Shown here: positions 9,787 through 28,189 of the stretch, piece by piece
Layout of the letters: every line of letters starts with the position of its first letter
Numbering within the stretch: the first letter of the stretch is position 1
The notes under the pieces: generated by a model
Told to the model about the DNA's origin: nothing
What the model saw: the letters and a program-made list of their open reading frames with translations, nothing else
Database searches by the model: none
Assembly: GCA_017457065.1 (NCBI GenBank)
Contig: JAFTIE010000123.1
Span: forward strand, 1 to 54,458
Length of the DNA stretch: 54,458 nt
Direction: 5' to 3'
Source of the DNA: Lentisphaeria bacterium
Lineage (GTDB): Bacteria > Verrucomicrobiota > Lentisphaeria > Victivallales > Victivallaceae
Made by a program: the position numbers and the translations under genes

Positions 9787-9862
<76 letters not shown>

Positions 9863-23159: not shown

Positions 23160-23854
23160 ACGAAGTGAGCAAACTTATTGAACTGAAAGAGATCACCAAA
23201 ACCTATTTCCTTGAAGAACTTTCGGTTCCTGTTCTCAAGGGGATCTCTCTGGAAATAGAACAGGGTGACTATGTGGCATTGATGGGGGCATCCGGTTCAG
23301 GCAAAAGTACGCTGATGAATATTCTCGGCTGTCTTGACCGCCCCACATCAGGTGATTACCTTCTGGAAGGTGAAGAGCTGGGCAGAGCCTCAGGAGACAG
23401 ACGGGCGATGATCCGGAACCATAAGATCGGATTCGTCTTTCAAAGCTTCAATCTGCTCCCCCGGACCAGCGCCATTGAAAATGTGATCATGCCTCTTGCC
23501 TACACAGCAGGGGGACTTTCCTCCTCCGAACGGCGCCGCAGGGGCATGGCAGCTCTGGAACAGGTGGGACTTGCGGAACGTGCCCATCATCACCCCTCCC
23601 AGCTTTCAGGGGGGCAACAGCAGCGTGTCGCCATTGCCCGTGCACTGGTGAACCGTCCCCCGCTGCTCTTTGCCGATGAACCGACAGGCAATCTGGACTC
23701 AAAGACCTCAGTTGAGGTCATGCAGATGTTCGACGCCCTCAATGCCGAAGGAATCACCATCATCCTTGTGACCCACTCTGATGAGATCGCAAATTACGCC
23801 AAACGTGTGATCCGTGTCTCAGACGGATTGGTCGTCAACGGAGGTTTCAAATGA
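23156..23854 (+). CDS. MacB-type ABC transporter ATP-binding subunit
   Basis: The 232-residue ATPase belongs to the LolD/MacB group: Walker A GASGSGKST, Q-loop FVFQSFNLLPR, signature LSGGQQQRVAIARAL, Walker B LLFADEPTGNLDS and switch VTHSDE. It has a GTG start that overlaps the macA stop (GTGA); a second GTG lies at 23165. The ATPase is separate from the permease, unlike fused E. coli MacB. It also overlaps the permease gene by 4 bp. Confidence 0.9.
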   Translation: MNEVSKLIELKEITKTYFLEELSVPVLKGISLEIEQGDYVALMGASGSGKSTLMNILGCLDRPTSGDYLLEGEELGRASGDRRAMIRNHKIGFVFQSFNLLPRTSAIENVIMPLAYTAGGLSSSERRRRGMAALEQVGLAERAHHHPSQLSGGQQQRVAIARALVNRPPLLFADEPTGNLDSKTSVEVMQMFDALNAEGITIILVTHSDEIANYAKRVIRVSDGLVVNGGFK

Positions 23855-25209
23855 ATTTTATCAATACCATCATCACGGCGCTCAAAGCTCTGAAACGGAA
23901 TCCCACCCGGGCTTTGCTCACCACTCTCGGTATCGTTATCGGTATCGCCGCTGTCATTACCATGATGGAAATCGGCAACGGTTCCAAAACCTCTGTCCGC
24001 ACCACCATAGAGAAGATGGGTGCCAACACCGGATTGATCCTTCCCGGATGGCTCCGCCGGGGCGGAGTCACCATGGGATACGGGTCCCGTGTCTCCCTGA
24101 CTCCCGCTGATGCCGAAGCCGTAGGCAGAGAGTGTCCCAGCGTGCTGCACTACTCTCCCGTGGTCCGTGCCTCAACGCAGCAGTTGATCTTCGGCAACTC
24201 CAACTGGGTCCCCCAGTGGATCTACGGCGTGGCGCCTGAATATCTTTATATCCGCAACTGGCGCATAGCCGAAGGCAGAAGCTTCACCCGGGAAGAAGTG
24301 GAAAGCAATGCAAGGGTATGTGTGATAGGCTCCACCGTTGCCCGTGAACTTTTCGGAAACGTTTCACCCGTTGACTGCGAGCTCAGGATCCGGGATGTGG
24401 CTTTCAAGGTGGTGGGAGTGCTCCACTCCAAAGGCTCCAATATGATGGGCATGGATGAAGATGACGTGCTTATGGCTCCGTGGACGACTATCCGTATGCG
24501 TATCACAGGACGCAGGACAGGCACTGCGACCAGTACCAAAAGCACTCCTGCCTCAAAACCCAGTGAACTTTACCCTGCCACCGGCGTGGCACTTTATCCT
24601 GAACCGGAGCCAAGCTTGACCACAGACAAACTTCTGATCCCCAAATTCACCTATATCGACCAGATCGTTTTTTCCGCCTCCACCCCGGGGAAGGTGAAAC
24701 AGGCGGAAAAAGAGATCACCGCACTTCTGCGTGAACGCCACCGGCTCCGCCCAATGGAAGATGATGACTTCCGGATCAGAAACTCAAGCGACTTCATGTC
24801 AATGCTCAACAGCACCACCTTGCTCATGACCAATCTGCTTCTGGGAGTGGCACTGCTTTCACTCATTGTCGGGGGTGTGGGCATTATGAATATCATGCTG
24901 GTCTCAGTCACAGAAAGGACAAGGGAGATCGGTCTGCGCATGGCTGTGGGAGCCAGATCTTCTGACATCCTCAAACAATTCCTTGTTGAATCCATCATCC
25001 TTTGCCTTGTAGGTGGGATCATCGGGATCCTCACAGGACATGGCGCCGCTCTGCTGGTCAACTATTATTTGAAATGGCCCATCGAATCAAGTCCGGGAGC
25101 TGTGGTCGCTGCGGTTGGTGTCTCAGTATTCGTCGGCGTCGTCTTCGGATTCTACCCGGCATGGAAAGCTTCAAAGCTTGACCCCATCGAAGCACTGCGT
25201 TATGAATAA
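23851..25209 (+). CDS. MacB-type ABC transporter permease (FtsX domain)
   Basis: This 452-residue permease has one N-terminal membrane helix, a large periplasmic MacB_PCD domain (residues about 50-310) and three C-terminal helices with the FtsX signature (VGGVGIMNIMLVSVTERTREI and FYPAWKASKLDPIEALRYE). With the adaptor and ATPase it forms a mechanotransmission-type pump that moves substrates such as macrolides, peptides or lipids from the periplasm. The substrate is not predictable. The gene ends 26 bp before the truncated repeat copy C. Confidence 0.9.
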   Translation: MNFINTIITALKALKRNPTRALLTTLGIVIGIAAVITMMEIGNGSKTSVRTTIEKMGANTGLILPGWLRRGGVTMGYGSRVSLTPADAEAVGRECPSVLHYSPVVRASTQQLIFGNSNWVPQWIYGVAPEYLYIRNWRIAEGRSFTREEVESNARVCVIGSTVARELFGNVSPVDCELRIRDVAFKVVGVLHSKGSNMMGMDEDDVLMAPWTTIRMRITGRRTGTATSTKSTPASKPSELYPATGVALYPEPEPSLTTDKLLIPKFTYIDQIVFSASTPGKVKQAEKEITALLRERHRLRPMEDDDFRIRNSSDFMSMLNSTTLLMTNLLLGVALLSLIVGGVGIMNIMLVSVTERTREIGLRMAVGARSSDILKQFLVESIILCLVGGIIGILTGHGAALLVNYYLKWPIESSPGAVVAAVGVSVFVGVVFGFYPAWKASKLDPIEALRYE

Positions 25210-25234
25210 GTACTGTTTCCCGGGGCGATACCGC

Positions 25235-25283
25235 TCGAAGAAGAGGGCGCTTTGACAATTTTGAGGAGTTTTGAAATTGCCTC
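25235..25283. mobile_element. MITE-like element, truncated copy C (right end only)
   Basis: TCGAAGAAGAGGGCGCTTTG through TTTTGAAATTGCCTC matches the last 49 bp of copies A and B; the left part is absent. It lies 34 bp upstream of the ribosomal protein operon promoter. Confidence 0.75.
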
Positions 25284-25316
25284 AGAAGAAAAAAACGGAT
25301 TTTTTTTGAAAATCAT

Positions 25317-25345
25317 TTGATAATACAGCTTTTGAGTGCTATATT
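25317..25345 (+). promoter_or_regulatory. Promoter of the rplV-secY operon
   Basis: TTGATA at 25317-25322 and TATATT at 25340-25345 are separated by 17 bp, with the TGC-TATATTAT context also seen before nadC. No other good promoter is seen before rplV. Confidence 0.65.
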
Positions 25346-25513
25346 ATATGACTTGCAGGTGTATTGTGCACCTGAAGTGTATTTTGCTGCTGTAGCGTCC
25401 GGGACTCATGGCGCAGCCGGCAAATTTCCGGAAAGTGGTTGATGCTGAACTGCTTACCGGGGATTTGGCGGCTCTGTTGAGCCTCGGGTAAAACCGCAAC
25501 AAAGTTCCTTGGA

Positions 25514-25660
25514 ATGAGGAAACTGAAAAAGAGGACACCCCTTACAAAGTTCTCTTTTGAAGTTTCAAATTTCAAAGAACAAGCGCAGCTGACAGATACT
25601 TTCTGCCGTCGGGAAGCGGCAAAAGGGGAATCAGCTGTATCCGGACAGCTTCATGAATGA
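25514..25660 (+). CDS. Doubtful 48-codon ORF in the rplV leader
   Basis: ATG 25514 opens a 48-residue frame (MRKLKKRTPLTKFSF...). A weak TTGGA precedes the ATG. The N-terminus is basic, but no family is recognised. Its stop overlaps the ATG of the next small frame by 8 bp. It may be a leader peptide or chance. Confidence 0.2.
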   Translation: MRKLKKRTPLTKFSFEVSNFKEQAQLTDTFCRREAAKGESAVSGQLHE

Positions 25661-25748
25661 AGAGTTTGAGGGTTACGATCCGGCTCCCGGCGGGGAGCAA
25701 GTGCGAAAACGGATCAACAGGGAAGACTTTCAAACAACTCTGAACTGA
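25653..25748 (+). CDS. Doubtful 31-codon ORF in the rplV leader
   Basis: ATG 25653 overlaps the stop of the preceding small frame and encodes MNEEFEGYDPAPGG and 17 more residues. Part of the frame lies within the GCTCCC/GGGAGC hairpin. No family is recognised. Confidence 0.2.
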   Translation: MNEEFEGYDPAPGGEQVRKRINREDFQTTLN

Positions 25749-25865
25749 AGGGAGTTGAGCCGGAATAACCCGGTCAGCCGGGTGGACTCTTTTGAGCCGG
25801 GGGTCTCGTCCAGGTGGATGAGAAACTTGATGCCGGCTGATGCAAAAAGGAAAAATGTTAAGATC

Positions 25866-26201
25866 ATGGAAGTTAGAGCTTTAACCAAAAATGTGCGGAT
25901 CTCTCCTGAGAAGGCGCGGCATGTCTCCCGCCTGATCCAGGGCAAGAGTGCAGTTGAAGCCCTTGCCATCGTCGAACTCAGCCCCCGCAAGGCGGCTGCT
26001 CTTATCGGCGACACGCTGCGTTCCGCAGTGGCAAATGCTGAAAACAACTGCGATGTCAACCGCAAGTTGCTGACCGTCAAGGCAGCATTGGTGAGTCCGG
26101 GCCCCATCATCAAGCGTTTTCGTCCGAAAGCGCGGGGATCGGCCGGTCGTATCCGGAAACGGACCAGTCATTTTGAAGTCATTCTGACCGACAATCAATA
26201 A
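25866..26201 (+). CDS. rplV: 50S ribosomal protein uL22
   Basis: uL22 lines the peptide exit tunnel and binds 23S rRNA. The 111-residue form starts MEVRALTKNVRISPEKARHV, which matches the family N-terminus, and contains RAKGSAG-like KARGSAGRIRKRTSHFEVI at the end. The frame stays open upstream to 25755 and includes in-frame ATGs (for example in NLMPADAKRK), so an N-terminal extension cannot be excluded; the ribosome-binding site is weak for all. Normally rpsS precedes it, but here the structured leader does. Confidence 0.93.
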   Translation: MEVRALTKNVRISPEKARHVSRLIQGKSAVEALAIVELSPRKAAALIGDTLRSAVANAENNCDVNRKLLTVKAALVSPGPIIKRFRPKARGSAGRIRKRTSHFEVILTDNQ

Positions 26202-26212
26202 GGAAACGAATC

Positions 26213-26920
26213 GTGGGACAGAAAGTCAATCCGATCGGTCTCAGAACTGCGCTGAACCATAATTGGGAATCACGCTGGTTCGCCGACAAGAAAAACGCCG
26301 GACGCACATTGTTCGGTGACTGGCTGCAGGAGGATCTTAAGATCCGTGCATGCATCCGCGAAATGCATCCTGCCGCTGCTATTGCACGCATTCAGATCGA
26401 GCGCTTCGCCAGTCGCGTTCGCGTGACCATCCACTCCGCCCGTTCCGGCGTTCTGGTTGGAACAAAAGGTAAAGTGCTTGAAGATCTTCGCGCCAAACTC
26501 GCCAAACTGGCTGAGGGCAAAGAGCTGTTTCTTGACATCGTTGATGTCCGTCGTGCTGAGACCAATGCTCAGCTGGTGGCTGAGAGCGTGGCACAGCAGC
26601 TTGAGCGTCGTATCGGTTTCCGCCGTGCGATGAAACGTGCCATCCAGCTGGCGATGGACAACGGTGCCGATGGTATCAAGATCAACCGCGCCGGTCGTCT
26701 CGGCGGTGCAGAACTCGCCCGTGAGGAACAGTATAAGGAAGGCCGTATTCCCCTTCACACTCTGAAGGCCAATATCGATTACGGCTATGTCGCTGCCAAC
26801 ACCCAGGCCGGTAAAATCGGCGTGAAGGTTTGGATTTGTCATAAGGAATCCTTGGAGGAAGAAGAAAATGCCGTTAATGCCAAAAAGGGTAAAGTACAGA
26901 AAGGTTCAGCGCGGAAATAA
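26213..26920 (+). CDS. rpsC: 30S ribosomal protein uS3
   Basis: The 235-residue protein starts at GTG with the family N-terminus (MGQKVNPIGLRTALNHNWES). It contains the KH domain (GVLVGTKGKVLEDLRAKLA) and the S3 C-terminal domain (GRLGGAELAREEQYKEGRIP, VWICHKE). The last 18 codons form a Lys-rich tail that overlaps the start of rplP by 53 bp in another frame. uS3 takes part in mRNA entry on the small subunit. Confidence 0.95.
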   Translation: MGQKVNPIGLRTALNHNWESRWFADKKNAGRTLFGDWLQEDLKIRACIREMHPAAAIARIQIERFASRVRVTIHSARSGVLVGTKGKVLEDLRAKLAKLAEGKELFLDIVDVRRAETNAQLVAESVAQQLERRIGFRRAMKRAIQLAMDNGADGIKINRAGRLGGAELAREEQYKEGRIPLHTLKANIDYGYVAANTQAGKIGVKVWICHKESLEEEENAVNAKKGKVQKGSARK

Positions 26921-27281
26921 CGGAGGCCTCGCCACAACCAATAATAAATTGGATTTCGGCGATTTCGCTCTCCAGACGCTGACCCGTGGGTACATCACCA
27001 ATAATCAGATCGAAGCAGCCCGTGTGGCTATCAACCGTCACCTGAAGCGTCGCGGCAAAGTGTGGATCCGGATGTTCCCGTACCGCTCTTTCACCAAGAA
27101 GCCTCTTGAAGTCCGTATGGGCAAGGGAAAAGGTGCTGTTGAAGGTTGGGTCGCTCCGGTTCTCCCCGGTCGTATCCTGTTCGAGATTTCAGGTTGCAGT
27201 GAAACCATTGCCAAGGAAGCAATGAGCCGTGCCGCCAATAAGCTGTGCGTCCGCTGCAAATTCCTGGCCCGTGAAAACTAA
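26868..27281 (+). CDS. rplP: 50S ribosomal protein uL16
   Basis: The 137-residue protein begins MPLMPKRVKYRKVQRG, as in other uL16 proteins, and has FGDFALQTLTRGYITNNQIEAARVAINRH and MGKGKGAVEGWVAPV patterns. uL16 helps position tRNA at the A site. ATG 26868 has GGAGG 8 bases upstream, inside rpsC; a second ATG at 26877 would remove three residues. The 53-bp overlap with rpsC is unusually long. Confidence 0.95.
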   Translation: MPLMPKRVKYRKVQRGNNGGLATTNNKLDFGDFALQTLTRGYITNNQIEAARVAINRHLKRRGKVWIRMFPYRSFTKKPLEVRMGKGKGAVEGWVAPVLPGRILFEISGCSETIAKEAMSRAANKLCVRCKFLAREN

Positions 27282-27298
27282 TACAGGTATAATCCCAA

Positions 27299-27502
27299 AT
27301 GAAGTACGTTGATATAGCTAAGCTGACCGACGAAGAACTGACCAGCAAGGTTCTTGAAATGCGTCGTGAGAAGCTGAATCTTAAAATTCAATCCCGTACC
27401 GGACAGCTTGAAAAGACTGCTCGTGTCAAGGAACTGCGCCGCGATATCGCCCGTTGCCTGACCGAAGAAGCCGCCCGGAAAAATAAAGAGGTGAAAGCAT
27501 GA
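27299..27502 (+). CDS. rpmC: 50S ribosomal protein uL29
   Basis: The 67-residue protein has the two-helix uL29 pattern: [25 protein letters not shown], then [16 protein letters not shown]. It sits near the exit of the peptide tunnel. Its order after rplP is standard. It overlaps rpsQ by 4 bp (ATGA). Confidence 0.93.
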
Positions 27503-27792
27503 GCGAAACCACTGTGGCCGTCCGCGGCAACCGCAAGGAGCGTGTCGGAGTTGTGGTCAGCGATGTTCAGAGCAAGACCATTGTTGTCAAGGTTGAACGC
27601 CGCACCGCCCATCCCCGCTATCACAAGATCGTCAAAGTGAGCAAGAAATTCACCGCTCACGATGAAAACAATGAAGCAAAGATCGGCGATACCGTTCGCA
27701 TCGTTGAAACCCGTCCCCTGAGCAAAAACAAACGGTGGCGGTTGGTTGAGATCATCAGCCATGCGATCAAGAACGACGTTGTCGAAGCTTGA
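27499..27792 (+). CDS. rpsQ: 30S ribosomal protein uS17
   Basis: The 97-residue OB-fold protein shows [39 protein letters not shown] and [20 protein letters not shown], the standard uS17 signature. It binds 16S rRNA early in assembly. It overlaps rpmC by 4 bp and lies 31 bp before rplN. Confidence 0.95.
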
Positions 27793-27823
27793 TTCAAGCT
27801 GGAAGAGTAAGGAATAAGTCATC

Positions 27824-28189
27824 ATGATTCAGATGCAAACCATATTAGAGGTCGCCGACAACTCAGGGGCAAAATCCCTGTTGGTGATCACTGTTCTCGG
27901 CCAGCAGAAAAAGCACGCCGTGGTCGGTGATATCGTCAGTGCTGCCGTACAGGAAGCTCTGCCCGACGGCACCGTCAAAAAAGGTCAGCGTGTCAAGGCC
28001 GTGATCGTCCGTTCCAAGATGAAGATCCGTCGTGCAGACGGTTCCTACCTCCGTTTCGACGAGAACGCAGCTGTTCTCATCGACAAGGACAAGAACCCCG
28101 TCGGCAGCCGTATTTTCGGACCTGTCGCCCGTGAGTTGCGCGATAAGAACTTTATGAAGATCATTTCTCTCGCGCCGGAGGTGCTGTAA
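27824..28189 (+). CDS. rplN: 50S ribosomal protein uL14
   Basis: The 121-residue protein has [37 protein letters not shown]-like [15 protein letters not shown], and [19 protein letters not shown] at the C-terminus, all diagnostic. uL14 takes part in an intersubunit bridge. AAGGAA precedes the ATG. Its stop overlaps the rplX ATG by one base (TAATG). Confidence 0.96.

Follow-up and report, generated by a model that had tools for sequence, protein, structure and literature searches.

Over most of the order Victivallales, an old cis-acting unit, consisting of a promoter and a folded RNA, appears to be nested, in full or at least with its promoter, in an unrelated gene for a secreted protein that precedes rplV and that we call X; in the genus of the genome studied here, the X frame was lost from this place while the unit remained as a leader of the rplV operon. 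We put the probability of this reading at about 0.68. For the order as a whole, it is probable that the promoter of the rplV operon lies inside X, that the folded RNA is nested there too in at least one family, and that the unit was freed as a bare leader in three losses of X. The leader is conserved and its helices covary, the nucleotide constraint on X depends on its position before rplV, and the X frame was lost repeatedly. Leaders of ribosomal protein operons are believed to have evolved many times independently, and their origin is rarely visible. Here, live intermediates can be compared, as the same element is dual-coding in Victivallis and other genera and a free leader in the source genus, and X copies away from this place form a built-in control. 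This makes it testable how a regulator nests in a protein gene and then outlives that gene. Annotators would see a coding gene in the cultured V. vadensis, and empty intergenic space in the source genome.

The window, the whole stretch of DNA that was analyzed, is a contig of 54,458 nt (JAFTIE010000123.1) from the Lentisphaeria bacterium assembly GCA_017457065.1, whose family also holds Victivallis vadensis (order Victivallales, Lentisphaerota). In it, 520 nt of non-coding sequence separate a promoter-like site at 25317-25345 from the ATG of rplV at 25866 (Table 1). Aside from an upstream extension of rplV, the only plus-strand ORFs in these 520 nt are 41 and 48 aa long. A first-pass annotation, made from the sequence alone, had proposed a structured leader of about 520 nt running from the promoter to rplV, which was confirmed by the predicted fold of 25346-25865: its minimum free energy (MFE) was -208.6 kcal/mol, whereas 100 dinucleotide shuffles averaged -163 +/- 6.3 and none was as low (z = -7.25). 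The first-pass count of five or more hairpins, each with 5-10 bp, was, if anything, modest, as the helices of the MFE fold include runs of 8, 11, 8, 10, 8, and 11 bp. Hairpins similar to those at the 3' end are found in the leaders of clades A-C, and GGGAAG has a second copy in the window at 25611-25616.

Table 1. Features of the rplV leader and the start of its operon in the window.
Feature	Position	Strand	Basis or remark
-35 box TTGATA	25317..25322	+	relatives share a TTG-type box, 17-nt spacer, and T-rich stretch upstream
-10 box TATATT, preceded by TG	25340..25345	+	the same box forms signal-peptide codons in the X of relatives
Structured leader, about 520 nt	25346..25865	+	fold z -7.25; conserved in the genus
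5' hairpin, 8 bp	25356..25374	+	predicted fold
Long hairpin (5+11+8 bp) with GATGCTG in its loop	25415..25473	+	covarying stem in 22/26 leaders
Apical loop GATGCTG, conserved	25441..25447	+	predicted 93% unpaired
Two-part hairpin with 3' bulge, presenting GTGCGAA	25677..25715	+	arm swap and predicted fold
GTGCGAA	25701..25707	+	26/26 leaders; predicted 95% unpaired
GGGAAG	25720..25725	+	26/26 leaders; predicted 77% unpaired
3' domain, 7-bp closing helix with 8-bp hairpin at 25804-25823	25775..25839	+	adjoins the ribosome-binding site; predicted fold
Shine-Dalgarno stretch	25847..25853	+	predicted 91% unpaired
rplV (L22), first gene of the operon	25866..26201	+	Pfam PF00237, E 1.5e-32
rpsC (S3), second gene	26213..26920	+	Pfam PF00189

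The promoter that the first-pass annotation had named was likewise present (TTGATA-17-TATATT, with TG before the -10 box), and relatives carry the same type. Scans of 23500-28000 gave 4 promoter-like sites (2.5 +/- 1.7 in shuffled sequences) and 6 terminator-like sites (4.7 +/- 2.2), neither of which stands out; the promoter call therefore rests on conservation among relatives rather than on the scan. From the position of its boxes, transcription would start at about 25352. No RNA family had been recognized in the leader by eye, and covariance scans agreed: the only family at the Rfam 15 gathering score in the window was a tRNA (9787-9859), and the ten matches obtained for 25200-25900 alone, up to E = 10, all fell far under threshold. 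ARAGORN detected no tmRNA anywhere in the window.

Across the order, rplV is the start of the operon in the loci that were fetched. As no S19 motif was found upstream of rplV in loci L031-L090, the S10 cluster appears to be split in the order; an S19 gene before rplV in relatives was considered and rejected, the ORF at that place being X. The operon genes past rpsC in the window, identified by eye, would encode L16, L29, S17, L14, L24, L5, S14, and S8, among others. Among them, an L16-like ORF, as listed, overlaps the 3' end of rpsC in another frame over about 50 nt (window 26868-26920). By eye, no rplD (L4) was recognized in the ORF list of the window.

The leader has counterparts throughout the genus. 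Of its 34 genomes, 25 yielded rplV, and all 25 loci carry the same type of promoter 230-690 nt before the gene, composed of a T-rich stretch, a TTG-type -35 box, 17 nt, and a TATNTT-type -10 box. This promoter was located by pattern in 23 loci and by a looser pattern in L025 and L029, which by eye also carry TGGAAA-17-TATTTT. A 26th leader was found outside the genus, in genome G126 (locus L033). All 26 leaders abut rplV, and BLAST connects most of them clade by clade, while one (L028) was linked through its upstream neighbor alone. Both GTGCGAA and GGGAAG were present in every one of the 26 leaders, and GATGC occurred anywhere in 24; by comparison, the best-spread 7-mer of each of 30 shuffled sets occurred in 6-10 of the 26. 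The leaders measure 233-686 nt, so that a small conserved core stands within a drifting scaffold. The longest, at 686 nt (L025 of genome G045; -723 to 0), is swollen by near-tandem units of about 45 nt with GTGCGAA, as judged by eye. In two other leaders, GTGCGAA and its flanking stem letters occur twice, 26 nt apart (L020, at -179 and -153; L022, at -178 and -152).

Covariation in relatives, a check that the first-pass annotation had put forward, bore out the leader as well. At its usual place, the GAUGC hairpin with its covarying stem was found in 22 of the 26 leaders, in 20 of which GATGC lies 92-101 nt from the -10 box; in L028 it lies closer to the promoter (50 nt), and it is absent from the usual place in L016, L017, L025, and L029. 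The long form of this hairpin was compared over 12 leaders of two clades and 22 base pairs. Cells were paired in 96.2% of cases, versus 85.3% when shuffled, 29 cells had changed on both sides versus 9.1, and the covariation score was 0.419 versus 0.210, each of these figures being reached in 0 of 500 shuffles. Changes on both sides were seen in 10 of the 22 pairs, and sliding the register destroyed the signal. When the arms of the stem were swapped among the 22 leaders, leaving out the four without GATGC at the usual place, the stem score fell from 23.5 to 11.5 +/- 1.2 (0/5000). Similarly, the hairpin presenting GTGCGAA scored 18.9 over 32 sites in leaders, against 14.6 +/- 0.63 after arm swapping (0/3000). 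An upstream ORF starting at the GAUGC loop was rejected as a candidate, since its ATG opens frames of differing length between clades (by eye).

Outside the genus, the place of the leader is occupied by X. The order-wide search found rplV in 121 of 133 genomes, and 91 loci outside the genus were fetched, not counting G126. A frame matching the X profile (E below 1e-5) ended 1-143 nt before rplV in 79 of these, the remaining 12 forming one rumen clade. X encodes a protein of about 300 aa, in which a signal peptide is recognizable by eye and which has a long coiled coil and a carboxyl-terminal beta part. It matched no family at threshold in Pfam or NCBIfam, and a fold search with an X model gave weak matches, mostly to F1-ATPase subunits (best E 2e-4, TM about 0.2), none of which amounts to an identification. 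Searched across the family, X turned up once per genome in 62 of 64. Within the genus, 32 of the 34 genomes have an X homolog, which stands apart from rplV. That of the source genome (L103, G000:C212:5500-9500) directly follows a recN-like ORF, as read by eye. The first-pass annotation had suggested a new cis-regulatory leader: it is indeed conserved, covarying, and outside Rfam, but the element itself is probably older and was nested in a coding gene.

As for function, we lean towards feedback in which a ribosomal protein encoded in the operon acts through the leader. In such a scheme, RNA polymerase would start within X or, in the genus, at the former place of X, and the leader would fold so as to present GAUGC, GUGCGAA, and GGGAAG. 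When in excess, a primary rRNA-binding ribosomal protein encoded in the operon would bind the leader RNA and either lower translation from the ribosome-binding site, predicted to be open, or halt transcription. Given an element nested in X, the codons of the signal peptide would serve a second time as the promoter, and those further downstream as RNA hairpins; after loss of the X frame, promoter and RNA would be free to shorten and drift. It is also conceivable, although we consider it rather unlikely, that the element controls the rplV operon in cis but senses another cue, such as a small ligand, the growth state, or protein X. Its large size, its three conserved motifs that are predicted to be unpaired, and the lack of an established rRNA counterpart would fit such a sensor. 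No known riboswitch class matched the leader in the Rfam scans. The leader persists in the genus although X stands apart from rplV there, which makes X a less likely partner. Its position also favors feedback, as it precedes a ribosomal protein operon, where control by a protein of the operon is the usual logic (passages of PMC10931766).

With regard to rRNA, GUGCGAA occurs in the 16S (761) and 23S (1248, 2371) rRNA of Escherichia coli, and GGGAAG in the 23S rRNA (1036). These motifs are short, so the matches are a weak lead rather than evidence. Two 23S patterns had no match in 5 and 3 genomes, and a 16S pattern had three matches in the 34 genomes of the genus, which gave no sign of being rRNA.

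A profile of the leaders with their promoter matched X regions with E-values of 2.8e-14 (L043), 1.1e-13 (L032), 3e-13 (L039), and 7e-13 (L034), while reversed controls gave 3.9 or worse. Without the promoter, the likeness was weak: the best E-value against X was 0.0014, with one of 250 shuffled controls at 0.00074, and the reverse search found a single leader, that of G126 (E 1.2e-4; best shuffled 0.029). The case for homology therefore rests on order, spacing, motifs, structure, and synteny. For codon-level tests, X ORFs were chosen by place and length in 58 of the 59 loci of L031-L090 other than L033, the X genes of L115-L135 being left out. After exclusion of the 25 of these 58 that lack an R[VI]LA[VI] motif, 33 were aligned by codon; 32 of them have the Asp-Ala column, and the 25 with GATGC were tested. 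The seven aligned genes without GATGC there belong to g34, the genus of V. vadensis (L037 and L038), and to other families (L073-L075, L077, and L089).

In these 25 genes, the signal-peptide codons hold the promoter, with a mean score of 12.7, compared with 4.5 +/- 0.66 after synonymous shuffling (0/200); this mean retains L069, whose upstream sequence could not be used, and L042, in which another site is picked. In 19 of the 25, GATGC follows the -10 box at 97-103 nt. In V. vadensis DSM 14823, the -10 box inside X reads TATTTT. Around the Asp-Ala codons, the GAUGC hairpin scored 16.4, versus 10.2 +/- 0.72 with arms swapped (0/5000) and 9.7 +/- 0.63 with synonymous codons shuffled (0/1000), and the signal was unchanged with one X gene per genus (18 genes). 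The Asp-Ala column ranked first of 274 X columns (z 7.0; next 4.3). A hairpin with GUGCGAA, in one case GUGCGAG, was present in the eight X genes that g34 has in place and in three from another genus; over these 11 genes, which were picked for having the motif, it scored 22.5, versus 18.3 +/- 0.97 after arm swapping (0/3000). Other X columns with arm-swap or synonymous signals lie at positions 58, 124, 179, 200, 219, 262, and 296 of the L034 alignment, with a z of 4.3 at 58 and 262 and locked codons at the others, so X may harbor further RNA elements.

Synonymous codon choice in X is locked at these elements. In the -10 box, Leu is encoded by TTA in 29 of 31 genes (3.1 expected), the most extreme of 96 columns. 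At further columns, Asp is GAT in 26/26 (15.7 expected), Val is GTG in 18/18 (8.4), Arg is CGA in 14/17 (2.7), a second Arg is NGG in 28/28 (13.0), and Glu is GAA in 29/30 (17.8), where the rows are related and the expected values serve as a yardstick only. It could be argued that X is constrained as a protein, through its signal peptide and its DA and VR..REE residues, and that its likeness to the leader is due to chance. At the amino acid level, in-place X does conserve DA and REE, and the weak likeness of leader and X without the promoter would be in line with this. We nevertheless regard this explanation as highly improbable: the synonymous shuffles and the arm swaps reject it, and the only two matches that R1, a covariance model trained on non-coding leaders alone, gave in 36 loci were the hairpins within X of L062 (E 0.039) and L065 (E 0.32), whereas R1 missed all 14 leaders from clades that it had not been trained on.

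Copies of X that do not overlap this place offer a natural control and argue against a protein-level constraint as well. From 32 regions fetched, 31 such copies were obtained (30 from the genus and one from G126), the region L244 having no tblastn hit; one of the 31 (L251 of genome G041) is not elsewhere but lies close before the leader, from which a stretch of unknown bases separates it. The Asp-Ala segment is missing in 29 of the 31; of the remaining two, one aligns a single Asp and one aligns six residues that do not include Asp-Ala. Arg-Glu was kept in 26 off-place copies, only 9 of which encode it as NGG-GAA; the in-place genes do so in 22 of 22 cases (Fisher 1.2e-6). GGGAAG was present in 6 of the 31, against 25 of 25 in-place genes, and GTGCGAA in 1 of the 31, against 12 of 25. 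Thus, the lock was lost away from rplV even though Arg-Glu was kept, and the constraint tracks the position before rplV and not the protein. The fold of X as a whole, measured against synonymous shuffles, did not clearly separate the two sets (-2.85 in place, -1.82 off the place, P = 0.06).

Also highly improbable is a stand-alone stable RNA gene before rplV, or a divergent known housekeeping RNA. The first-pass annotation had offered a stable RNA cut from the transcript as its second option, and the size and strong fold of the leader would be consistent with one. This option was not supported: the element has no Rfam match, it abuts rplV directly in all 26 loci despite its range of lengths, and by eye no terminator is shared between clades. 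RNase P RNA was rejected, as the only match in the source genome lies elsewhere (G000:C120:10681-11051, E 5.4e-58); it was matched in 31 of the 34 genomes of the genus.

Loss of the X frame was traced on a quick tree of 77 rows, built from up to eight ribosomal proteins with SH-aLRT support. An ORF rule assigned 46 rows to X, 30 to leader, and 1 to short, after which two rows were reassigned by hand: L204, called X by the rule, became leader, and L189, called leader, became short. The first of these changes was borne out, as the locus concerned (L106) has no X-like frame. The state "leader without X" then took three changes, which well-supported branches force: one in the genus (20 rows, support 100), one in G126, which is placed next to a g34 row that has X (98), and one in a rumen clade of nine rows (100). 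The leader of G126 carries GATGC, GTGCGAA, and GGGAAG. Some leaders show faint X-like frames that span the promoter (L033, E 6.2e-5; L010, 5.7e-4; L022, 0.0016; L016, 0.0018), as expected if the leader derives from X, though common promoter letters may explain part of this. A small coding relic and nothing more was rejected as a description of the leader, despite these frames.

Least probable of all is that the leader is decayed X plus a promoter with incidental structure: X at this place in so many loci outside the genus, its homologs elsewhere in the genus, and the faint frames all agree with decay, but 26 diverged leaders retain the motifs and covary, G126 lost X separately on the tree and has the same motifs, and the nucleotide constraint is already present in intact X and released in X off the place. 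A decayed gene is what the first-pass annotation had named as evidence against its leader. The region was indeed formerly X coding sequence, but its elements were constrained while X was intact and that constraint is lost where X lies off the place, so decay does not suffice.

The S10 leader of E. coli is not known to be nested in a coding gene, and the S8 site of the spc operon is an internal element of its operon. The S10 operon of E. coli holds rplD (L4), which encodes the ligand, whereas the operon described here begins with rplV. Like the leader of this operon, the S10 leader is long, highly structured, and located before a ribosomal protein operon, and the S8 site controls a set of ribosomal genes (both in passages of PMC10931766) that overlaps the set identified here, past rpsC by eye. 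Compared with the S8 site, the present leader stands at the 5' end, is far larger, and has no Rfam match. An L2 leader candidate of Alphaproteobacteria (rplB, rpsS, rplV, rpsC) also precedes a block including rplV and rpsC but starts at rplB and comes from another phylum; the main text of that report mentions neither "Lentisphaer" nor "Victivall" (PMC7247131). Acido-Lenti-1 RNA (RF01687), listed in PMC2864571 as a structured RNA of Lentisphaerae, matched neither the window nor the leader.

Leaders of ribosomal protein operons are a known kind of element. RNAs that overlap coding regions have also been listed: candidates for such structured RNAs in human microbiomes form a known class in PMC8040213, a study of 2022 candidates, whose main text contains neither "Lentisphaer" nor "Victivall" nor "rplV". 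In the literature searched, supplements and most subscription papers aside, we found no report of this leader, and no precedent for a leader and promoter nested order-wide in an unrelated gene and freed by its loss.

The rumen clade, which belongs to another family (L085 and L104-L114), differs from the other two cases of loss. Its 12 fetched loci contain no X-like frame before rplV (best E 0.074), and the promoter is kept (E 4.1e-4 to 1.1e-9). It is followed by a non-coding leader of about 230 nt, in the region from about -305 to 0 of rplV. Neither GTGCGAA nor GGGAAG was found in any of the 12, and GATGC, present in 11, lies 65-66 nt before rplV, away from its usual place. This may thus be a second, different leader. 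In the six loci that were read, a hairpin takes the form CCGGGGACAYUCAG ... CUGAAAAUGCCCG.
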